Part shown: piece by piece, positions 3,524-24,390 of the stretch
How the letters are laid out: every line of letters starts with the position of its first letter
Numbering within the stretch: position 1 is the stretch's first letter
Source of the DNA: Ignavibacteriales bacterium
GTDB taxonomy: Bacteria > Bacteroidota > Ignavibacteria > UBA10030
DNA length: 64,000 nt
Direction: 5' to 3'
NCBI GenBank assembly: GCA_026390575.1
Contig: JAPLFR010000008.1
Location: 62,001-126,000 of the forward strand
Made by a program: the position numbers and the translations under genes
The notes under the pieces: model-generated
Seen by the model: only the letters and a program-made list of their open reading frames with translations
Told to the model about the DNA's origin: nothing
The model's database searches: none

Positions 3524-3898
3524 TTACGAGATTACGCAGCATTTGAATATCAGTCCAGCAGAGTTGAATGAGTTAATGAAGAAAGTTCGGGAGAAAGCGG
3601 TGGAATATTTATGCAGATTATGAAAACAGTCGATGCTTGACAGCACTGGTATTAAGTAAAGTGCGTTAGAGTTAATATTTATGAAGACATATTGAGTTGA
3701 AGAAAAGACATATTGCTCACAAGTGAGGTAAGTAAAAAAACTACGGATTTCATTTTCACCTATTTCAGCGGGATGGCGGTTATGGTGAAAAAAGATGTAC
3801 CGTTTTGTCCATTGAAGATAAGCTTCCTCGGTACGCAGGCTCAGATGTTGTGTACAAATGCAATTATGTACATGCTGTAGTATTATTTCGTTAGCCAT
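3524..3898 (-). pseudogene. Truncated integron integrase (intI remnant)
   Basis: From the Met at 3898, which has a GGGA ribosome-binding site just before it, the first 85 or so residues match the SAM-like N-terminal domain of integron integrases. They include 'LSLRTEEAYLQWTKRYIFFH', 'NRHPAEIGENEIRSFFTYL' and 'SSTQ ... NALYLI', which resemble IntI segments of the type 'SIRTEQAYVxWIRRFIxFH' and 'RHPxxMGxxEVxAFLTxLA'. After about position 3641 the similarity fades, and the frame ends at 3524 without the catalytic domain: no R, HxxR or Tyr motifs and no IntI-specific insert. The gene is therefore inactive. It points away from the cassettes, which start at 4164, in the canonical intI-attI-cassette layout. 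The open frame upstream of 3898 (to 4093) looks like leader sequence. Confidence 0.8.
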
Positions 3899-4169
3899 AC
3901 TATTTCCCTTGCAATTGAGTAAGACATTCGATAGTTTAGCGGAAACCTCAAGAGAAAATCCAAAGAAGTTTATTTTGAAGAAAGGGAATGGGCTGTTGGG
4001 GGCTATCTCGCGAAGGGCATAAGGACAAGCACAGACAGCACACTCCTTTTTAGAGGGCTGCGGAGGACGCAGTCTATAATACAAAACACTCATATTAGGC
4101 TGAATTACGCAGTCTAACCAACAGAAGTGAGGATTTAGACTGCGTTGCGCAGTCTAATCATAGTTAGGG
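3899..4169 (+). other. attI-like region of the integron
   Basis: This is the interval between the intI start and the first cassette. It ends with the core GTTAGGG at 4163-4169, after whose G the first cassette begins. Copies of (A/G)CGCAGTCTA lie at 4067-4076, 4107-4116 and 4147-4156. The last is half of a perfect hairpin, TAGACTGCG (4136-4144) with CGCAGTCTA (4148-4156). Repeated integrase-binding boxes next to the core are known from attI1, but whether these serve that purpose is inference. The array promoter Pc should lie here or inside intI, but I cannot name it with confidence. Confidence 0.55.
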
Positions 4170-5804: not shown

Positions 5805-6018
5805 TTCTAACCAGCAACTCAAGCTGACGGTTTGAGCGTGGGAGCAATCAACATGGCTAATAGAGGTTTGGTGCTTAATAATTCAGTTGATAGCGTGAAC
5901 TCGTTTCGTTGGTTGCATTACGATAATTATCAACGCCGCAGTCCGATCCTGCTCTGCAGGATCGCGATCGCGTCCCGATATGTAATATCGGGACGGACTT
6001 AGCGCCGGTCCGTTAGGT
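5805..6018 (+). repeat. attC1 recombination site
   Basis: It runs from inverse core TTCTAAC (5805-5811), through CAGC and an arm reading AACTCAAGCTGACGG, to core GTTAGGT (6012-6018). A full nested palindrome (GTCCG...CGGAC) occupies 5941-5998. The cassette start 'GTTAGGGCGCACG' (4163 on) is complementary to the end 'GCGTGCGTTCTAAC' but for one step. Confidence 0.8.
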
Positions 6019-6720: not shown

Positions 6721-6989
6721 TTCTAACCAGTGGCTCCCCGCAAAAAGAGCGGGGTTTCACACAAAACGTTCAACAAGCTGACCGAATGAGCGTTGGTACA
6801 TTTTACATTGCTGGTGGTGGGTTGACATTTTTATAATTAACTTTTCAGTACCTCGTTGGTTGATTGCAGATTAATTTAGTTATCAGTATGAACTCATTTC
6901 GTTTAGTGTATTATGAAAGTTATCAACGCGGCAGTCCGATCCTGCTCTGCAGGATCGCGATCGCGTCACTTAGCGCCAATCCGTTAGGC
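6721..6989 (+). repeat. attC2 recombination site
   Basis: Inverse core TTCTAAC (6721-6727), left arm with a CCCCGC-AAAAAGA-GCGGGG hairpin and GTTCAACAAGCTGACCG, core GTTAGGC (6983-6989). The GTCCG palindrome is present from 6934 but lacks its second hairpin and CGGAC end. Cassette 2 starts GTTAGGTCGCAAA and ends TTTGCGTTCTAAC, which are nearly complementary. Confidence 0.8.
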
Positions 6990-8672: not shown

Positions 8673-8925
8673 GCCTAACCAGCGGCTCCCCGCAAAAAGA
8701 GCGGGGTTTCACACAAAACGTTCAACAAGCTGACCGGATGAGCGTGGGAGCATTTTACATTGCGCTTAGAGGTTTTGGTTCTTAATAATTTCTTTTTCAT
8801 AATGAACTTGTTTCGTTTTCAGCATTATGAAATTTATCAGCGCCGCAGTCCGATCCTGCTCTGCAGGATCGCGATCGCGTCCCGATATGTAATATCGGGA
8901 CGGACTTAGCGCCGATCCGTTAGAA
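8673..8925 (+). repeat. attC4 recombination site
   Basis: Inverse core GCCTAAC (8673-8679), CCCCGC hairpin arm, core GTTAGAA (8919-8925). The GTCCG...CGGAC palindrome is at 8848-8905 with a CCCGATAT/ATATCGGG second hairpin. Cassette 4 starts GTTAGGCGGGCGCT and ends AGCGCCCGCCTAAC at its flanks (apart from a few bases), the clearest 14-nt terminal complementarity of the array. Confidence 0.85.
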
Positions 8926-10585: not shown

Positions 10586-10843
10586 TTCTAACCAGTGGCT
10601 CCCCGCAAAAAGAGCGGGGTTTCACACAAAACGTTCAACAAGCTGACCGAATGAGCGTGGGTAGGTTACGCATGGCTGGTGGTGGTTTCTGATTTTTATA
10701 ATTAACTTTTCAGTACCTCGTTGGTTGATTGCAGATTAATTTAGTTATCAGTATGAACTCATTTCGTTTAGTGTATTATGAAAGTTATCAACGCGGCAGT
10801 CCGATCCTGCTCTGCAGGATCGCGATCGCGTCATCCGTTAGGC
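10586..10843 (+). repeat. attC5 recombination site
   Basis: Inverse core TTCTAAC (10586-10592), CCCCGC hairpin arm, core GTTAGGC (10837-10843). The right palindrome is cut short: the first hairpin (GATCCTGC/GCAGGATC) and GCGATCGC remain, while the second hairpin and the CGGACTTAGCGC segment are missing. Cassette 5 ends GTTAGAACGCACG / CGTGCGTTCTAAC are complementary. Confidence 0.8.
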
Positions 10844-10884
10844 CGGGACCGAATCTATTCACAACTGAAAGGAAATTTTCCAAA

Positions 10885-11730: not shown

Positions 11731-11983
11731 GCCTAACCAGCGGCTCCCCGCAAAAAGAGCGGGGTTTCACACAAAACGTTCAACAAGCTGACCGGATGAG
11801 CGTGGGAGCAATTTACATTGCGCTTAGAGGTTTTGGTTCTTAATAATTTCTTTTTCATAATGAACTTGTTTCGTTTTCAGCATTATGAAAATTATCAGCG
11901 CCGCAGTCCGATCCTGCTCTGCAGGATCGCGATCGCGTCCCGATATGTAATATCGGGACGGACTTAGCGCCAGTCCGTTAGCC
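11731..11983 (+). repeat. attC6 recombination site
   Basis: Inverse core GCCTAAC (11731-11737), CCCCGC hairpin arm, palindrome GTCCG...CGGAC at 11906-11963, core GTTAGCC (11977-11983). Nearly identical over its length to attC4. Cassette 6 starts GTTAGGCCGGGACCG and ends CGGTCACGGCCTAAC, complementary at all but one position. Confidence 0.85.
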
Positions 11984-12574: not shown

Positions 12575-12904
12575 GGCTAACCAGGCGCTTCCCGAAGGGA
12601 TCTGCCAAAGGCATGGCATAGCTACCTTTGGGACAAGCTGACGGTTGCCAGCGGCAGGCTGGGTACGTTACGCATGGTGAACATAGGTTATAGTCTTAAT
12701 AATTTTTTTTTCAGCGTGAACTCGCTTCGCTGGGTGCATATTGAAAGTTATCACCTGCCTTCCGGCTTGTCCGCTGAAACGAAGTGCAAGCGGAAGTGCC
12801 TACGGCACGCAGGCAGGGCGCCGCAGTCCGATCCTGCTCTGCAGGATCGCGATCGCGTTCCATTGCAATGGCAATGGAACGGACTTAGCGCCGATCCGTT
12901 AGCT
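12575..12904 (+). repeat. attC7 recombination site (longest)
   Basis: Inverse core GGCTAAC (12575-12581), core GTTAGCT (12898-12904). It carries both palindromic inserts: the CCTGCC...GCAGGCAGG type at 12754-12817 and the GTCCG...CGGAC type at 12826-12884, the latter with a TTCCATTGC/GCAATGGAA second hairpin. Cassette ends GTTAGCCAGCA / TGCTGGCTAAC are exact complements. Confidence 0.8.
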
Positions 12905-14372: not shown

Positions 14373-17063
14373 ATGCCGAAAAAAGGTTTACGATATATCA
14401 TCCTCTGCTTTTTCATCACTTCCAGTTTTGCATACAATAAATTAACTGCACAAAGCATCAGTAATATTACAAGTATTAAAATCGAAGATAATACGTTGAT
14501 AATATCTGCAGGCACCAATATTGTAATTATTAAACCATGCACAGACAATATTGTTATGATCAATTATCGACCGAATGGCGTGAAAGATCCCGACACGCTT
14601 GTTGTAGCTGATACCGTTTGGCCATCAATATCAGCAATGATCGATACATCCGGAGATCCGCTGCGCATAACAACAGCGAAATATAAAATAGAAATCGACA
14701 GGAATCCTCTTCGATATCATTTATACGACAATATCGGCCAGATGCTTTGCTATGAGTCGTCATCGTGTAGCATGCAAGCGAACAGTGTTTGCTTATCTAC
14801 CTCGGGCGGGACATTTTATGGAGTTCACAATCGCTCACAAGGCTCTCTTAGCACGCAGAACACGAATGCGATCAGCGCTGGTAGTCAGGGGCAGGCAGGG
14901 GGTCCGTTTACGTGGACCAATCATGGCTGGGGATTTCTTGCCGATGTTGACGGAGGTTCCATAGCGATCAGCGGTAATTCGTTTTCATTTTCACGTAGCT
15001 CTTCTACAGTAAAAAGAGATTTAGAATTTTATTTAATCATCGGAACACCGAAAGAAATCATTAAAGGATTGAATCAGATTACCGGCATGCCCCCACTTTT
15101 CCCAAAGTACACACTCGGTTTTATGAACACCGAATGGGGGATTGACCAGACAGAACTGTACAGTGACATCCGCAAATATCGTCAGAAATCGATTCCGATC
15201 GATTCGTACATTCTTGATTTCGATTGGATGGATTGGGGAAGCGACAACTACGGCGAATTCCGATGGGGGCCTAAGTTTCCCGACGGTCAGTCGGGGGCGA
15301 TAGTAGACACGCTGAAAAAATACAGCATGCACTTGATGGGAATTCGCAAGCCGCGCGTCGGGACCGGAACCATCCAAGGGAATTATTGTCAGGACAATAA
15401 TTTCTTTGTGGATTATCAGACCGATTATTTTAGCGGCAAGCAGGTTGGACGCATGAATTATTTTCTTCCCGCTGCGCGTCAGTGGTACTGGAATAGCTTT
15501 GCAGTGCAAGGCAATTCATACACGAAAGGAATTACCGGTTATTGGAACGATGAAGCCGATGAGTATGGGGGTAATTTAATGTTCATGCAAATGCAGCGTG
15601 CACAGTATGAAGGGCAGCGTGCGTTCAACAACAACCGTGTCTGGTCGATCAACCGGAATTTTTATACCGGCGCACAGCGCTATGCTTACGGGCTCTGGTC
15701 TGGCGACATTAATTCTGGATTTTCATCGATGGCAGATCAACGACTTTTCATGCTTTCAAGTATTACCCTTGGTGTTTCATGGTGGAGCATGGATATCGGT
15801 GGATTTCAAAGTACACCAGTCGCGGAAAATTATTATCGCTGGATACAATTCGGAGCTTTCGTGCCGATTTTTCGCGTTCATGGTTCATACAATCAGGAAA
15901 GAGAGCCTTGGTACTTTGGGACAGTCGCGGAATCTATTGCGACACGGTATATTCGTCTCCGTTATAAGCTGATGCCTTATATTTATTCCGCCGCATGGGA
16001 AAATCATCTTACTGGAATTCCAATCACACGCCCTCTTGTGTATGAATATCCTAATGATGTCGCAGTTGAGAATATTTTTTCCGAGTGGATGTTCGGCAGA
16101 AGCCTGCTCGTCTCTCCTGTCGTCGTTTCCGGTGCAACACAGCAATCGGTCTATCTACCGGAAGGAGATTGGTACGACTACAATACAGGCACACACTATT
16201 CTGGAATGGCAAACTATAATGTTCCTGTTACGAAGGAAGACATTCCGATCTTTGTCAAGGGAGGAGCGATAATCCCAATGTCTCCCGTTGCACAATATAC
16301 CGATAACCCTGATGCTTTAAAGACTCTGATACTCAGCAGTTTTCCCGGTGGATCAGGGGGATGCGTTGTGTATGACGACGACGGATTAACCTATGATTAC
16401 GAAAAAGGAATTTTCAACGCTGTTACAATCGCTCACGATCGCAATGACGCACGTGCGATCATTAGTATCGGTACAAAAACCGGTGCATACAGCTTGCCTC
16501 AAAGAGACTGGCTGGCCGATCTGAATTGGGTCGCTTCACTTCCCGACAGTATTGTGCTTGACGGCGTTCATTTGAATATTCTGTCAGTCGATTCTATCAG
16601 TCTAGTTTCAATTAAGGGCTGGGCATACGATAAATCAGGAGAGTACTGTTATGCAAAATTTCCAGACGACGGTGCATCGCATTTGTTGACGGTTTATTTT
16701 AGTTCTCAAACATCAGTAGGGAAGTCAAACGGAAATGAATTGCCGCAGCATTACGAGCTAAAGCAGAATTATCCCAATCCATTTAATCCCAGCACAACTA
16801 TATCATTTAGTCTGCCATCCAAATCGTATGTATCACTGAGAATATATGATGCATTGGGAAGAGAAGTTTCAACGCTCGTCAATGAAGAGCTGCCTGCTGG
16901 AACTCACAAGAAACAATGGAATGCAATGAATATGGCTAGTGGAATCTATTACTATCGTTTGTCCGCCGTGCCCTCAGCACGGCGAGATCTCGTCCCGACC
17001 AAAGGTCAGGACGGACAGGCAGGGTCGTTTACAGAAACAAAGAAACTTGTTTTATTGCGATGA
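14373..17063 (+). CDS. GH31 family alpha-glycosidase with T9SS tail (cassette 9)
   Basis: 896 residues. Signal peptide about 1-25. GH31 fold: N-terminal beta domain, then the (beta/alpha)8 barrel with 'DFDWMDWGSDNYGEFRW', nucleophile Asp in 'GYWNDEADEYGG', acid/base Asp in 'LWSGDINSGFSSM', and 'FVPIFRVHG'. Family members are alpha-glucosidases, alpha-xylosidases and related enzymes; the preferred sugar is not evident. The C-terminus is a T9SS type A tail ('KQNYPNPFNPSTTISFSLP', ending KKLVLLR), so it is exported to the surface. Odd feature: between 'YYYRLSA' and 'GSFTETKK' lie 18 extra residues (VPSARRDLVPTKGQDGQA) encoded by a nested palindrome at 16961-17016; other tails in this window read RLQAGSFTETKK there. 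RBS GGGAATG precedes the ATG. Confidence 0.9.
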   Translation: MPKKGLRYIILCFFITSSFAYNKLTAQSISNITSIKIEDNTLIISAGTNIVIIKPCTDNIVMINYRPNGVKDPDTLVVADTVWPSISAMIDTSGDPLRITTAKYKIEIDRNPLRYHLYDNIGQMLCYESSSCSMQANSVCLSTSGGTFYGVHNRSQGSLSTQNTNAISAGSQGQAGGPFTWTNHGWGFLADVDGGSIAISGNSFSFSRSSSTVKRDLEFYLIIGTPKEIIKGLNQITGMPPLFPKYTLGFMNTEWGIDQTELYSDIRKYRQKSIPIDSYILDFDWMDWGSDNYGEFRWGPKFPDGQSGAIVDTLKKYSMHLMGIRKPRVGTGTIQGNYCQDNNFFVDYQTDYFSGKQVGRMNYFLPAARQWYWNSFAVQGNSYTKGITGYWNDEADEYGGNLMFMQMQRAQYEGQRAFNNNRVWSINRNFYTGAQRYAYGLWSGDINSGFSSMADQRLFMLSSITLGVSWWSMDIGGFQSTPVAENYYRWIQFGAFVPIFRVHGSYNQEREPWYFGTVAESIATRYIRLRYKLMPYIYSAAWENHLTGIPITRPLVYEYPNDVAVENIFSEWMFGRSLLVSPVVVSGATQQSVYLPEGDWYDYNTGTHYSGMANYNVPVTKEDIPIFVKGGAIIPMSPVAQYTDNPDALKTLILSSFPGGSGGCVVYDDDGLTYDYEKGIFNAVTIAHDRNDARAIISIGTKTGAYSLPQRDWLADLNWVASLPDSIVLDGVHLNILSVDSISLVSIKGWAYDKSGEYCYAKFPDDGASHLLTVYFSSQTSVGKSNGNELPQHYELKQNYPNPFNPSTTISFSLPSKSYVSLRIYDALGREVSTLVNEELPAGTHKKQWNAMNMASGIYYYRLSAVPSARRDLVPTKGQDGQAGSFTETKKLVLLR
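16961..17016. repeat. Palindromic mini-element inserted in frame in the GH31 gene
   Basis: Outer arms GTCCG (16961-16965) and CGGAC (17012-17016) enclose hairpin GCCGTGC/GCACGGC, the small palindrome GAGATCTC and hairpin GTCCCGACC/GGTCAGGAC. The same order (GTCCG, hairpin, GCGATCGC or GAGATCTC, hairpin, CGGAC) is found in seven attC sites here. It adds 18 codons without breaking the frame. Confidence 0.7.
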
Positions 17064-17281: not shown

Positions 17282-18721
17282 ATGAAAATGCTCCGTTTCT
17301 TAATAATTGTTTTATTTGGATCATCATTTTTCATGGCATTTTCAGTTGGTAGTCTAGGCAGTAATCTAAGAGATGTAAACAACCGCGCTGACTATGTCAT
17401 AATTACTCCAATATCTTATTACGCCTTAGCGGAAACATTAGCGATATATCGTCAGGGGAAGAACAATTATACCACAATGGTTATCAATGTGGACACTGTG
17501 CTTGCTCAGTTTGGATCTGGGGTTTCTCCAGATACGGCTTTAAAGAACTTTATTCAATATGCACTCAATAATTGGAGTGATCCTAAGCCTCAATATTTCG
17601 TATTAGCTGGAAATATAAATACTGTTCCTTCTCATCCCGAACCGGAATCCATTTCATCTGAATGGGTTACCGTTCGCGACACACTTTTAATGATCGATCA
17701 ATGGTTTGTAGAAGTCCCTGGTACATTGCAAGTAAATGCATGTATCGGACGTTTACCGGCATGGGATTCGCTCGGACTTTCTGTTATGATTGCTAAAACC
17801 ATAAATTACGATCAAGAAGCGGTTGGTGAATGGTACAATAAGGCTATTTGTCTATCCGATTATGATAGCAGCGATGGTTACATTTTCGAAAACAATGCGA
17901 ACTCTATCAAGTCCATTCTCGGTTCACTCTGGAGTGATACTATTACTGTCAACATCAGAAGCAGTTCGCCTAATCATCTTGATACAGCTGGTTTTCTACG
18001 TCTCTGGAATGAAGGCGCTGCAATAATCACGTATTGGGGTCATGCGAACCAGAATCAATTCTCGAAGAGCCGATATTTTTATACAGAGAGTATAGATTCC
18101 CTTATTAATGGCAACCAATTGCCTGTGTGTCTTCTGGCTGGATGCGATTTGTTATACGATAGTCGTCCCCCGCTTTCTATTCCAACCCATCTACTTGAGA
18201 AAAATGGCGGAGGTGCAGTTGCAGTTATTTCATCCGAAGGATTGTCTTATGAGTCTGAGGTGTTTAATTTCTACACTACTTTAATAAACTCAATGATTCA
18301 GAAACCGAACGAGCCGATTGGGATGTTGTTCAAAGAAGCGAAGTGTAGTTTAAATTATTTTGACGTTATTAGAAAATTAACGTTTTTAGGTGATCCGGCT
18401 TTAATAGTTAAACATCCTGTCGCTCTCACTGATGTGCAAAACCAGTTTTCTCATCCTGAATCGTTTGCACTTAAACAGAATTATCCAAATCCATTTAATC
18501 CGACAACTGTAATTGTTTACCAATTGCCAGCTCAAAGCAATGTTACGTTGATAGTATTTGATATGCTAGGAAGAGAAGTTAAAACGCTAGTAAATGATAG
18601 ACAATCTGCCGGTCTTCATTCGGTAATTTTCAATGCGAGTGGTCTGACGAGCGGTGTTTATTTTTATCGGTTGCAAGCTGGTTCATTTACTGAAACAAAG
18701 AAATTATTATTTCTCAAATAG
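17282..18721 (+). CDS. Gingipain-type (C25) cysteine protease with T9SS tail (cassette 10)
   Basis: 479 residues from Met 17282, chosen over 17252 because the signal peptide (MKMLRFLIIVLFGSSFFMAFS) starts there. Peptidase C25 fold: 'DYVIITPISYYALAETLA' at the start, 'YFVLAGNINTVPSHPE', catalytic His in 'ITYWGHANQNQFS' and Cys in 'PVCLLAGCDLLYD', then 'GAVAVISSEGLSYE'. A T9SS type A tail completes the protein ('KQNYPNPFNPTTVIVYQLP', ending KKLLFLK). No prodomain of the long gingipain type is visible, so it resembles the shorter C25 proteins common in this lineage. It would be exported and cleave proteins outside the cell or process surface proteins. Specificity is unknown. Confidence 0.85.
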   Translation: MKMLRFLIIVLFGSSFFMAFSVGSLGSNLRDVNNRADYVIITPISYYALAETLAIYRQGKNNYTTMVINVDTVLAQFGSGVSPDTALKNFIQYALNNWSDPKPQYFVLAGNINTVPSHPEPESISSEWVTVRDTLLMIDQWFVEVPGTLQVNACIGRLPAWDSLGLSVMIAKTINYDQEAVGEWYNKAICLSDYDSSDGYIFENNANSIKSILGSLWSDTITVNIRSSSPNHLDTAGFLRLWNEGAAIITYWGHANQNQFSKSRYFYTESIDSLINGNQLPVCLLAGCDLLYDSRPPLSIPTHLLEKNGGGAVAVISSEGLSYESEVFNFYTTLINSMIQKPNEPIGMLFKEAKCSLNYFDVIRKLTFLGDPALIVKHPVALTDVQNQFSHPESFALKQNYPNPFNPTTVIVYQLPAQSNVTLIVFDMLGREVKTLVNDRQSAGLHSVIFNASGLTSGVYFYRLQAGSFTETKKLLFLK

Positions 18722-18737
18722 TATCAAATGCATTTGC

Positions 18738-19022
18738 ACTTAACCATTATAAAAAGGAAAGAGTTCCCGCCGAAGCGGGATTTCGCAGGCTCAACAAGCA
18801 AATAAAATTCTTCCCATACGTCCCGCGAAGAGAGATGCGAATGTTCAATAAACTTGTTTCGTTTTCGCAACTTAAAAATTATCACCTGCCTGCCGCATCC
18901 CGCTTTGCGGGACGGAAGGCGGGCACGCAAGCAGGGCGCCGCAGTCCGATCCTGCTCTGCAGGATCGCGATCGCGTTCCATTGCAATGGCAATGGAACGG
19001 ACTTAGCGCCCATCCGTTAGGC
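18738..19022 (+). repeat. attC10 recombination site
   Basis: Inverse core ACTTAAC (18738-18744) is less canonical; the left arm has GTTCCCGC/GCGGGA and GGCTCAACAAG. It carries a CCTGCC...GCAAGCAGG palindrome (18885-18935) with an inner CATCCCGC/GCGGGACG hairpin and a GTCCG...CGGAC palindrome (18944-19002). Core GTTAGGC is at 19016-19022. Confidence 0.7.
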
Positions 19023-19783: not shown

Positions 19784-20010
19784 GCCTAACCAGCGATTCC
19801 CGCCAAAAGGTGAAACACGGCGGGTTTTCAACAAGCTGACCGGATGAGCATCGCCCGCCTGCGTTGATAAGAAAACTTCGGCGGGCTTGTACGTTAAGCA
19901 TGGCAAGCAGAGGTTTTGATGTTTAATAATTTAGTTTTCAGCATGAACTCATTTCGTTTTGTTTATTTTGAAAGTATTCATCGCGGCAGCTTAGCCGCCA
20001 TCCGTTAGGC
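19784..20010 (+). repeat. attC11 recombination site (without the GTCCG palindrome)
   Basis: Inverse core GCCTAAC (19784-19790), arm GCGATTCCCGCC/GGCGGG and CAACAAGCTGACCGG, core GTTAGGC (20004-20010). Before the core it reads GCGGC-AGCTTA-GCCGC, the same simple stem-loop as in attC3. A different GCCCGCC/GGCGGGC palindrome lies in the left half at about 19853-19888. Confidence 0.85.
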
Positions 20011-20055
20011 AACGTTGCCACCATATAGACTTGAATATATTCATGGAGGGCACAA

Positions 20056-21525: not shown

Positions 21526-21830
21526 GCCTAACAAGACGCTCCCGCCCAACAAGACGGCGGGCAAGCAAGCTGACGGATGTTAGCTGAGTGCAATTTACAT
21601 GGCACGCATAGGTTTTAGTCTTAATAATTTCTTTTTCAGCATGAACTCACTTCGCTGGTTACATGTTGAAAGTTATCACCTGCCTGCCGGCTTGTCCGCT
21701 GAAACGAAGTGCAAGTGGAAGTGCCTACGGCACGCAGGCAGGGCGCCGCAGTCCGATCCTGCTCTGCAGGGATCGCGATCGCATTCCATTGCAATGGCAA
21801 TGGAACGGACTTAGCGCCGATCCGTTAGTT
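21526..21830 (+). repeat. attC12 recombination site
   Basis: Inverse core GCCTAAC (21526-21532), arm CCCGCC-CAACAAGAC-GGCGGG, CCTGCC...GCAGGCAGG palindrome (21679-21742), GTCCG...CGGAC palindrome (21751-21810), core GTTAGTT (21824-21830). Cassette ends GTTAGGCAACG and CGCTGCCTAAC pair at all but one or two bases. Confidence 0.8.
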
Positions 21831-21868: not shown

Positions 21869-24166
21869 ATGAAAAACCTATTTCGGTTTTCGGCACTGTT
21901 AGTTTTGTGCTACGCCAGCGCAGACCTATCAATTGCTCAATGGGTTCAAAGTAACGGACCGTATGGTGGCAGTATTCATACCATTGCAATCAGCCCCGAC
22001 GGAAGTAACATCTTTGCAGGCACTTGGGGCGGGGGAGTGTTTCTCTCCACAAACAACGGTTTAAGTTGGACATACTCCGGATTGACAAACGCTGGTGTTA
22101 GCGCTCTTGCTATCAGCCCCGACGGAAAAAATATCTATGCGGGCTGTTCAGCCTGGACCAGTGGAGTTTTCCTTTCGACAGACAATGGTTCGAGTTGGAC
22201 GGCAGTCAATAATGGTTTGCCAAACGTCGGCGTCAGTTCACTTACAATAAGCTCTGATGGGTCGAAGATATTCGCTGGAACCAGTAGTGGCGCCTTTCTG
22301 TCAACGAATAACGGTTCAAGCTGGATGACAATAAACAATGGACTTACGAACACAAATATTTGGTCTCTCGCCGTCAGTCATGATGGATCAAAGATATTTG
22401 CAGGTACCTTAGGTGGCGGGGTCTTTCTATCAACGGACAATGGCTCTAACTGGACAAGCGTCAGCAACGGATTGACGAATATGAATGCCATTTCTCTAGC
22501 TATTAGCCCGGATGGTGCAAATATATATGTTGCGGTCTGTACCAAAGGGTCGATCATCCAAGAGGGGCCCACGGGCGGTCGGGTTTTTCATTCCACGAAC
22601 AACGGTTCTAGCTGGACAAAATGCGATTCCATATTGGTGAGTGCAGGTGCGGATGCTTCCTCTCTCGCGATCAGCCCGGATGGTGCGAATATTTATGCGG
22701 GAACTTGGAGCAACAGAGGAGTTTATCTTTCCACAGACAACGGATTGAGTTGGAGCCCGGTCAATAATGGATTCAATACTCCGTCTTTGGTTCCTCCAAA
22801 CATTTGGACTCTGGCTACAAGTCCCGATGGGGGAAGTATTTTCGTCGGCACGCATGGTAATGGACTGTATCGTTCCACCACTAGCAATGTAAATTGGATA
22901 GAGACGAATTCCGGATTGACAAACCTCGGCATTCAATGTTTCGGATTCTATTTGAACGATACACACGTCTTTGCAGGCAGCGGCGGTGAAGGAATTTTCC
23001 TTTCTACGGACGACGGTTTAAACTGGACCACAAACAACATTGGGTTGACAGGTGGCAACGTTACCTGTCTTGTTGTCAACCCGGCCGATTCGAATATATT
23101 TGCAGGTACTTGCGGGTGGTGGTCAGGAATCTATGTTTCTACGAATCCCGGTGCCAGCTGGGCCGCAGGTCATAACGCATTAACATACGTCAACATCAGG
23201 ACCCTTGCAATGAATTCTGGCGGGATGAATATCTTTGCGGGTACCGACAGTGGAGTTTTTCTTTCCACGGACAATGGATCATCCTGGAGTGCGGTAAACA
23301 ATGGGTTAACCAACCTTACAGTGTACTCTCTCGCAACTACCCCCAGTGCGACGGATATCTTTGCTGGTACTCTCGGCGGCGGTGTGTTTCATTCCACAAA
23401 CAACGGTTCAAGTTGGACGGCAGTTAACTCTGGATTAACTAATGATTCTGTCTATTCTCTTGTGATCAGCCCGGATGGGACGAAACTCTTTGCCGGTAGT
23501 TGTAGCAATAATGGTGGAATTTTTCTCTCCACGAACAATGGTGTAAGCTGGGTGGCAGTAAACAATGGATTTCCAAATCCTTATATCAATTCCAATTCCC
23601 TTGCAATTACGCCAGATGGGAAGTATATCTTTGCCGGTACTGCCTTTAGCGGGATGTATCTATCTGCGGACAATGGTTCATCCTGGACAGCGGTCAATGA
23701 TGGATTGCCGAATCTATTGATTACATCAGTTGCAGTCAACAGAAGCGGAACATTTCTCTTTATCGGAGCTGCAGGTGGAAGTACCACAAGTATGATGAAG
23801 ATGAGTAATAGAACCGTAGGGGGGAGTACCGCATATGGAGTGTGGCGACGCCCGGTGTCACAGTTGATCAGTGGCATTGAAAATAGGTCAGAACAGATTC
23901 CGATTCGTTTTGCTTTGGAGCAAAACTATCCAAATCCGTTCAACCCATCAACAGTCATAAACTATTCCATGCCAACAAGTGGCATGGTAACTCTGAAAGC
24001 CTACGATGTACTTGGCAGAGAATTACGAACATTGGTCAGTCAGCATCAGACCGCAGGGAGTCATTCCGTCACTTTCAACGCGGGCAATCTCACAAGCGGA
24101 TTGTATTTTTATCGTTTACAAGCCGGCTCATTTTCAGAAACAAAGAAACTTGTTCTATTGCGATGA
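21869..24166 (+). CDS. BNR/sortilin-type beta-propeller repeat protein with T9SS tail (cassette 13)
   Basis: 765 residues, signal peptide about 1-23 and AAGGAG ribosome-binding site. About 14 repeats of roughly 45 residues follow the pattern 'ISPDGxNIFAGTxGGGVFLSTDNGSSW', containing the BNR Asp-box (S-x-D/N-x-G-x-x-W). They should build one or two beta-propellers. A T9SS type A tail ends the protein ('EQNYPNPFNPSTVINYSMP', ending KKLVLLR). Such proteins are surface-exposed binding proteins; Asp-boxes alone do not prove sialidase or other catalysis. At about 2.5 kb this is a very large integron cassette. Repetitive DNA makes slippage and length variation likely. Confidence 0.9.
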   Translation: MKNLFRFSALLVLCYASADLSIAQWVQSNGPYGGSIHTIAISPDGSNIFAGTWGGGVFLSTNNGLSWTYSGLTNAGVSALAISPDGKNIYAGCSAWTSGVFLSTDNGSSWTAVNNGLPNVGVSSLTISSDGSKIFAGTSSGAFLSTNNGSSWMTINNGLTNTNIWSLAVSHDGSKIFAGTLGGGVFLSTDNGSNWTSVSNGLTNMNAISLAISPDGANIYVAVCTKGSIIQEGPTGGRVFHSTNNGSSWTKCDSILVSAGADASSLAISPDGANIYAGTWSNRGVYLSTDNGLSWSPVNNGFNTPSLVPPNIWTLATSPDGGSIFVGTHGNGLYRSTTSNVNWIETNSGLTNLGIQCFGFYLNDTHVFAGSGGEGIFLSTDDGLNWTTNNIGLTGGNVTCLVVNPADSNIFAGTCGWWSGIYVSTNPGASWAAGHNALTYVNIRTLAMNSGGMNIFAGTDSGVFLSTDNGSSWSAVNNGLTNLTVYSLATTPSATDIFAGTLGGGVFHSTNNGSSWTAVNSGLTNDSVYSLVISPDGTKLFAGSCSNNGGIFLSTNNGVSWVAVNNGFPNPYINSNSLAITPDGKYIFAGTAFSGMYLSADNGSSWTAVNDGLPNLLITSVAVNRSGTFLFIGAAGGSTTSMMKMSNRTVGGSTAYGVWRRPVSQLISGIENRSEQIPIRFALEQNYPNPFNPSTVINYSMPTSGMVTLKAYDVLGRELRTLVSQHQTAGSHSVTFNAGNLTSGLYFYRLQAGSFSETKKLVLLR

Positions 24167-24174
24167 GCAATTGC

Positions 24175-24390
24175 ACCTAACCAGCAACTCAATCTGACGG
24201 ATTGCGCGTAGGTGCATTGAACATTGCGCTTAGAGGTTTTGATGTTTAATAATTTTGTTTTTAGCATGAACATAGTTCGTTTTGTGTAACATTGAATTTG
24301 ATCACGCGGCAGTCCGATCCTGCTCTGCAGGATCGCGATCGCGTTTCATTGCAATGGCATTGGAACGGACTTAGCGCTGATCCGTTAGGG
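24175..24390 (+). repeat. attC13 recombination site
   Basis: Inverse core ACCTAAC (24175-24181), CAGC, simple arm AACTCAATCTGACGG as in attC1, GTCCG...CGGAC palindrome (24312-24370), core GTTAGGG (24384-24390). Cassette 13 starts GTTAGTTGCACTTGC and ends GCAATTGCACCTAAC, complementary except at two positions. Confidence 0.8.

Follow-up and report, generated by a model that had tools for sequence, protein, structure and literature searches.

How did a glycoside hydrolase gene come to carry, in frame, a segment of DNA that folds into two hairpins? The question is raised by the GH31 gene of a 64,000-nucleotide stretch of an Ignavibacteriales genome (GenBank assembly GCA_026390575.1, contig JAPLFR010000008.1, positions 62,001 to 126,000; hereafter the window), whose C-terminal type IX secretion system (T9SS) sorting domain contains a palindromic insert. 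An initial annotation had described this insert as an in-frame palindromic element of 18 residues at 16961-17016, and our analysis found it exactly there. We conclude that it is probably a copy of a small non-autonomous mobile element that consists of two hairpins in a fixed frame, enters DNA seamlessly, is mobilised in trans and is tolerated in the tail. The source genome (G000) comprises 3.82 Mb in 16 contigs, the window being G000:C8:62001-126000; genomes, contigs and loci are prefixed G, C and L. The parts of the gene, its insert and two comparable tails are as follows, in window coordinates.

14373 to 17063, forward strand: GH31 glycoside hydrolase with a C-terminal T9SS sorting domain (open reading frame (ORF) of 896 amino acids, Pfam)
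16740 to 17060, forward strand: T9SS tail of GH31, with the insert between the last two predicted beta strands
16962 to 17015, forward strand: insert, a double-hairpin element of 54 nt, translated SAVPSARRDLVPTKGQDG
16961 to 16964, forward strand: GTCC end of the fixed frame
16965 to 16983, forward strand: hairpin A, GCCGTGC-CCTCA-GCACGGC, 7-bp stem
16984 to 16991, forward strand: central palindrome GAGATCTC
16992 to 17012, forward strand: hairpin B, GTCCCGACC-AAA-GGTCAGGAC, 9-bp stem with one mismatch
17013 to 17016, forward strand: GGAC end of the fixed frame
18452 to 18718, forward strand: paralogous T9SS tail without insert (peptidase C25 gene), empty site 18673^18674
23897 to 24163, forward strand: paralogous T9SS tail without insert, empty site 24118^24119

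Pfam assigned a GH31 barrel, a GH31 C-terminal domain, DUF5110 and Por_Secre_tail to the ORF. The 54 nt supply 18 codons in frame with it, placed between RL and QAGSFTETKK, and the whole feature including the fixed ends measures 56 nt (16961-17016); no stop codon interrupts the insert in any of the three forward frames or in one of the reverse frames. The insert region folded more stably than its shuffled versions both as DNA (z = -3.4) and as RNA (z = -3.9), with none of 200 shuffles equally stable in either case. When the insert is removed, the site reads TTTG^CAGGCAGGG (RLQAGS), like paralogous tails, and the joined flanks could be aligned without gaps to such tails of the same or sister genomes with identities of 71/89 (L073), 68/89 (L072 and the window tail at 23897-24163), 67/89 (L076), 63/89 (L066), 58/89 (the window tail at 18452-18718) and 54/89 (L082). 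A comparison with homologues, which the initial annotation had proposed, agreed with this result: the closest full GH31 homologue among 40 relatives (G017, L034; 56% identity over residues 22-865) lacks the 18 residues in its tail.

No Rfam family reached its gathering score in the window, and a PDB sequence search with the GH31 tail returned no match at E 0.01. In an AlphaFold model of the tail (107 residues, 14 sequences, mean predicted local distance difference test (pLDDT) score 79.5), the insert corresponds to residues 75-92 and appears as an unstructured, low-confidence turn, with pLDDT below 50 at residues 85-92 and flanking strands at residues 68-78 and 97-105. The model thus predicts a turn position between the last two beta strands, and a location in such a turn would account for the tolerance of the insert.

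The same architecture recurs in the attC sites of the window, as had been claimed at the outset, and the family turned out to be wider than that claim. GTCCG..CGGAC pairs occur 10 times in the window compared to a shuffle mean of 0.61; two of them (31404 and 40175) lack the architecture of the element. The attC sites with and without the element are listed below.

5941 to 5998, forward strand: element in attC site, hairpin B of the TCCCGATAT type
8848 to 8905, forward strand: element in attC site
11906 to 11963, forward strand: element in attC site
12826 to 12884, forward strand: element in attC site, hairpin B of the TTCCATTGC type
18944 to 19002, forward strand: element in attC site
21751 to 21810, forward strand: element in attC site, mutated
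24312 to 24370, forward strand: element in attC site, mutated
19983 to 20012, forward strand: attC site without element, GCGGCAG^CTTAGCCGC
6934 to 6981, forward strand: attC copy keeping hairpin A and the centre, without hairpin B

Filled attC sites read GGCA-G[TCC..GGA]C-TTAGC or CGCA-G[..]C-TTAGC, and the empty form is GGCAGCTTAGC. By eye, a GTTAGGC-like attC core was not visible in the printed flanks of the copies in GH31, in tRNA copies and in palindromes resembling repetitive extragenic palindromic (REP) sequences, and the element lies inside some attC sites. A second attC copy that retains hairpin A and the centre and has lost hairpin B is found at 10799-10849. Adjoining the cassette array on the reverse strand (3524-4093) is an ORF of 189 amino acids whose sole Pfam match is the N-terminal SAM-like domain of phage-type integrases; it is possibly a truncated integron integrase.

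Across all contexts the family frame is GTCC-[hairpin A]-GMGATCKC-[hairpin B]-GGAC, with stems that vary and are self-complementary. Hairpin sequence differs between copies and pairing is retained. Among 71 distinct hairpins, positions 2-6 from the foot pair at 91.5% within a copy and at 48.7% between copies, and the identity of the 5′ arms is 49%; only copies with at least 3-3.5 net pairs were admitted, a threshold that 42 of 69 distinct frame matches pass and that raises the value of 91.5%. When the threshold was removed, 118 hairpin slots, chance matches included, paired at 68.1% on average. The 18 distinct tail inserts of 54 nt, a set that left out identical inserts, the 17-residue forms of G040 and shorter forms, kept 85.8% of pair cells, and this fell to 29-43% when the partner was shifted by 1-3 columns. 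Their covariation score was 0.190 compared to 0.144 in shuffles (reached in none of 500), and 13 cells had changed on both sides compared to 6.9 in shuffles (3 of 500). The 39 distinct elements outside tails measure 41-64 nt. A third hairpin nested in hairpin B was observed in G000:C1:148999-149067 (L284), G001:C123 and G209:C57.

A genome-wide search with a GTCCG/CGGAC descriptor had also been suggested, and it showed that the element is not unique to the GH31 gene: the frame pattern gave 27 forward matches in the source genome, several of them without hairpins, and 1 match for the reversed pattern. A two-hairpin descriptor applied to 478 kb, most of which were stretches chosen for already having matches, yielded 26 matches (25 places, as two overlap) and none on the reversed sequence. 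Because the only descriptor match in the long stretch C16 90-350 kb was a tail copy at 97.7 kb that was known beforehand, the element seems sparse away from integron arrays.

Beyond the source genome, 26 of 294 genomes matched in a class-level scan, 15 of them with hairpins and none with the reversed pattern; the 11 set aside by eye for lack of hairpins were G029, G049, G061, G065, G095, G117, G135, G155, G192, G242 and G255. A phylum-level scan of 395 genomes gave 13 matches, of which the 4 with hairpins all belong to the source's own order, and one genome with the reversed pattern; here G029, G242, G255, G401, G430, G462, G538, G584 and G622 were set aside for the same reason. With a narrower pattern, a collection of 84,980 species returned 30 stretches. 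Twelve of these contain tail copies and come from metagenome-assembled genomes (MAGs) titled Ignavibacteriales, Bacteroidetes, Bacteroidota or 'bacterium'; six others (L115, L122, L124, L133, L135 and L142, with imperfect ends in L115 and L133) are titled Ignavibacteriae (two), Bacteroidota, KSB1, Omnitrophota and Elusimicrobia; and 12 were set aside by eye (L113, L114, L117, L119, L120, L121, L125, L132 and L137-L140). The Omnitrophota copy L124 lies in an open frame of 690 amino acids, but it was not counted as a proven in-frame insertion because its 58 nt are not a multiple of three and further palindromes adjoin it. L201 is a coding match and was excluded from the folding, hairpin and length analyses.

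Empty and filled versions stand next to each other among tRNA copies, tails and attC sites, which fixes the insertion point with single-base precision. A filled site reads G[TCC...GGA]C where the empty one reads GC, and insertion is seamless, without target duplication, at tRNA, attC and tail sites. Truncated tRNA copies interrupted by the element were examined at 17 sites (tRNA-Ser, -Ala, -Leu, -Met and -Pro), hand-picked from the pattern matches with L268, which adjoins tRNA-Pro, left out. At 13 of the 17 sites the locus also contains an intact tRNA of that kind, to which the joined flanks correspond in 21-29 of 30 positions; the other four loci lack an intact tRNA. The junction is G^C in 11 cases and G^T in two (L211 and L256), the latter fitting a one-base shift of the element border or a later change. 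The element enters at the D loop, at the G^C step of the tRNA-Ser(GCT) anticodon (source genome, G039, G085, G209 and KSB1, five in all) and, in L267, at G^C steps at approximately positions 28 and 41. One KSB1 tRNA copy holds two elements, with a degenerate hairpin B in that of the D loop. Examples of REP-like palindromes that host the element are ATTCCCG[..]CTTAAAATCCGCGGGAAT and ATTCCCGAATG[..]CTTCTATCGGGAAT. Copies also occur in L122, L196, L209 and L276, in surroundings of no recognised type.

The anticodon position shared by five genomes, together with the D-loop positions, would also be expected of a spliced RNA element that resembles a tRNA intron and is removed after transcription. 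We consider this explanation barely conceivable and reject a tRNA intron: intact tRNAs stand beside the interrupted copies at 13 of 17 sites, the interrupted copies inspected are truncated or cut by the contig end, and splicing is therefore unnecessary. Moreover, the insert is an open frame in GH31.

Hairpin loops were likewise rejected as a general insertion target. When 23 distinct empty sites were folded as DNA, the mean probability that the junction lies in a hairpin loop was 0.29 compared to a background of 0.19 (p = 0.30); near-identical sites had been collapsed on 26 bases only, and sites with short flanks left out. The probability was 0.65-0.91 at six sites (two attC, three tRNA and one REP) and 0.02-0.37 at seven other tRNA-copy sites.

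Partial tRNA copies also contain other double-hairpin inserts, placed in the T loop close to TTC^GA (L025:8834-8894, L203:200-260 and L262:1748-1815; for example, TGAGCC..GGCT TATGCGCC..GGCGCA), and these apparently represent a second family or families.

The place occupied in GH31 is a recurrent one, as the insertion spot YxYRL^QAG is also used in a second protein of the source genome (L063) and in other genomes. A query with the tail plus insert (E 0.001) matched 21 of 98 genomes of the order, the source included, some of which carry other spacers and not the element. Inserts of 18 residues are commonest, with 17 residues in G040, 12 in L077 and 10 in L075, and the copies found via protein begin with TCC and mostly end with GGG or GGA. 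Fourteen tails fit the pattern in the source-genome DNA examined, a non-random sample: nine with a bare 7-residue spacer, three with 11-14 residues and two with the element. A palindrome family that enters both attC hairpins and genes in frame, as originally claimed, was borne out by the copies in both contexts.

The accompanying claim that the frame is preserved held for the tails with exceptions and did not extend beyond them. The protein-side tail pattern detects only open frames, but the DNA-side count, which needs a well-kept core, is independent of frame, and by that count 17 of 18 distinct tail copies read in frame to the tail end (16 by pattern and L116 by eye), one tail being broken. 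L090, a further tail-like match, has a stop inside the insert. The lengths of the 39 distinct elements outside tails leave remainders of 0, 1 and 2 on division by three in 15, 16 and 8 cases, and as multiples of three are not clearly favoured among them, the preserved frame of tail copies looks like the outcome of selection acting after insertion.

It may well be, although we lean slightly to the other side, that an ancestral T9SS tail acquired the element in one or a few events and that GH31 obtained a filled tail by recombination among similar tails. The GH31 insert would then be an element by origin and not a new insertion at this place, which is compatible with our preferred explanation. 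The same residue holds the insert in many unrelated proteins, tails are numerous and similar, and hairpin A is alike in most tail copies (G[TC]CGTGCC..GGCACG[AG]C); because many copies share this ancestry, their number does not fix the count of independent entries into tails. However, the two source-genome tails differ in stems and centres (GAGATCTC with a GGA end in GH31, GAGACCTC with a GGG end in L063), the tails of G040 have another stem set in addition to their 17 residues, L077 carries a miniature, and the canonical ends are retained in GH31 and L118.

Short palindromes of several other kinds have also been taken up in frame by T9SS tails, whether at this turn, downstream of it or in a different loop (LSGVEGSV in L127), as seen in L065, L067, L070, L071, L074, L078, L088, L107 and L127. 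Those near the same place include CCCGCCAAACATCCGGCGGG and GTGGCGAAGGCCATCCCTTCGGGA, and the CTTCGACAAGCTCA types lie further downstream.

What might move the element? One candidate is a Y1 tyrosine transposase of the REP-associated type (RAYT) acting on folded single strands, with the element being a REP/REPIN-type sequence that is moved either by itself or carried along by a REP. A hairpin at each end and the lack of a target duplication suit a single-strand mechanism, and several copies lie inside REP-like palindromes. The source genome has 13 matches to the Y1 transposase family (PF01797). One of them, a RAYT-like ORF on contig C1 that lacks its first part (L024:5249-5644), is followed after 225 bp by a degraded element (L024:5869-5953), on one side only; the two together occupy G000:C1:145248-145952, and another element lies at L024:9000, 3.4 kb on from the ORF. 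Y1 genes lie 1.2 kb (G001) and 1.7 kb (G024) from an element, two loci chosen because of that distance. Over 64 genomes of the order, Y1_Tnp is present in 12 of the 12 with hairpin-bearing elements and in 39 of the 52 others (Fisher p = 0.048, Mann-Whitney p = 0.009, uncorrected for kinship). Against this, 37 Y1 loci (10 in the source genome), examined to at most 1.5 kb on each side, contain no element by the strict or the relaxed pattern. The strict pattern would miss degraded copies; the relaxed pattern, run over 43 loci, found an element in three (L024, L286 and L287) and none in the reversed control, with L286 and L287 included because their distance between Y1 gene and element had already been noticed. 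In addition, the element has no GTAG tag. We therefore regard a link to REP and RAYT as possible, if on the unlikely side.

A second candidate is a GIY-YIG nuclease that opens tRNA-derived sites, with double-hairpin elements filling the cut. Seven of the eight GIY-YIG (PF01541) matches of the source genome abut a tRNA or a piece of one: three lie in the tRNA-Ser arrays of C5 and C3 and four adjoin tRNA-Pro, -Arg, -Gln and -Leu, while the eighth lies near a contig end, where no tRNA was found. The order of parts at these loci is an intact tRNA, the GIY-YIG gene and a partial tRNA copy. On C5 the unit border is the anticodon G^C, which is also the insertion point of the element, and the ORFs read through it. 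Such ORFs take in, without a frame break, elements that lie at their end or start. A GIY-YIG gene was present in the fetched stretch at 8 of 15 tRNA-context loci, one of them a partial match (L257). Genomes with elements have more matches (mean 2.6 compared to 1.25, Mann-Whitney p = 0.008), but a close match is missing in two of the 12 (G017 and G024), and presence in 10 of 12 genomes with and 30 of 52 without elements gives a Fisher p of 0.09 (both uncorrected for kinship). At the attC, REP and tail loci examined, no match was found except weak ones in L208 and L209. We consider this explanation improbable as it stands, and the GIY-YIG nuclease serves as a lead to the mover. The loci with small GIY-YIG genes directly beside intact tRNAs, often with a partial copy of that tRNA next, are L026:7635-8581 (G000:C5), L258-L264, L142:6700-7150, L205:27-386 and L216:1-640, and the arrangement resembles a mobile unit that targets tRNAs and restores them.

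According to the mobile-element explanation that we prefer, the element is probably moved in trans by an enzyme whose recognition feature is either the frame or the strand in its folded form. The element would build up where an extra structured segment does little harm, the contexts observed being attC sites, truncated tRNA copies and other palindromes. In GH31, it would have landed in a T9SS tail, or come with one, and added 18 residues in the predicted turn that separates the last two beta strands. Copies that shifted the frame of a tail would mostly have been lost, so that nearly all tail copies read through, and filled tails would then have spread through duplication and exchange.

Several points weigh against this explanation. 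Mobility is deduced from the comparison of empty with filled sites, and the hairpin ancestry shared by most tail copies suggests that entry into tails may have been limited to a few occasions. The named records with tail copies are MAGs, and several of the copies are located at the end of a contig. Loop targeting has no overall support, the GH31 site itself having a loop probability of 0.05 compared to a window mean of 0.22. Two of the covariation measures fall within the shuffled range, namely pairs altered on both sides (62 of 500) and additional pair types (129 of 500), and kinship among tail inserts can inflate the remaining ones. The Y1 loci without an element count here as well, the sole close Y1 case is a broken gene with a degraded copy, co-occurrence fails to separate Y1 from GIY-YIG, both being weakly associated, and no enzyme is firmly tied to the element.

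Among known systems, the element is comparable in its behaviour to Rickettsia palindromic elements (RPEs) and to the double-hairpin elements of organelles, and yet fails tested features of both. RPEs are described, in parts of two reports, as palindromic DNA of approximately 150 bp lying in frame in many unrelated genes (PMC10969869, PMC3733652), and the relevant part of the second report states that they end in a CGTC tag and that no dedicated transposase has been reported for CGTC elements (PMC3733652). The likeness proposed by the initial annotation stands in behaviour, namely in-frame palindromes in coding genes and, as far as those accounts go, no known dedicated transposase. It does not stand in the tag or the size: the listed copies end in GTCC/GGAC, bases that the search pattern fixes, and have 41-64 nt, two hairpins, a host in another phylum and additional copies in attC sites and truncated tRNA copies. 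REPs, according to a portion of the same survey, are short palindromes, some of which lie inside coding regions (PMC3733652). The element shares with the REP/REPIN and RAYT system its short palindromes and the location of some copies inside REP-like ones, but it differs in having no GTAG tag at the hairpin foot, in stems that are not conserved between copies and in its relation to Y1 genes, with 37 loci free of it and a degraded copy behind one broken RAYT-like gene.

The double-hairpin elements of Allomyces are organellar mobile elements with two hairpins. Yeast GC42 clusters are characterised, in part of one report, as mobile hairpin elements under structural constraint, with AG or ACT repeats on their flanks that resemble target duplications (PMC4478555). 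Two adjacent hairpins, mobility and stem-preserving change (with the above caveats on covariation) are common to these organellar elements, as partly described, and ours, whereas here the host is bacterial, the flanking repeats of yeast are absent, and a frame like GTCC/GAGATCTC/GGAC does not appear in those parts of their description. A miniature inverted-repeat transposable element would likewise be non-autonomous with inverted terminal bases, but in our case the terminal inversion covers only 4-5 bp and there is no target-site duplication, as the joined flanks give an intact tRNA or paralogue without repeat. Open-licence papers, considered by title and start of abstract among the top matches of large sets, included none on this element or on palindromes in T9SS tails and none on GIY-YIG genes beside bacterial tRNA genes. 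Together with the GTCC/GGAC frame of its own, this agrees with the suggestion of a different, undescribed family.

In-frame palindromic elements are known mainly from Rickettsia, where parts of a survey report no dedicated mover (PMC3733652). The present element adds a second, distinct example from a distantly related group, in which empty versions stand next to filled ones. A single type of element enters recombination sites, copies of RNA genes and proteins, and it offers a testable origin for new loops of secreted proteins. It is unusual for stems to vary so widely within a fixed frame, which points to a mechanism that reads structure. In its most specific form, which we hold to be unlikely as a whole, the proposal is that the 16-base frame and the ability to form two hairpins are the only conserved content, that entry is seamless at G^C of tRNA-derived, attC and palindromic sites, that the machinery is possibly linked to GIY-YIG, and that the element provides raw material for peptide segments of tails. 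If this were true, hairpins so free to vary would imply machinery that responds to structure rather than to sequence.

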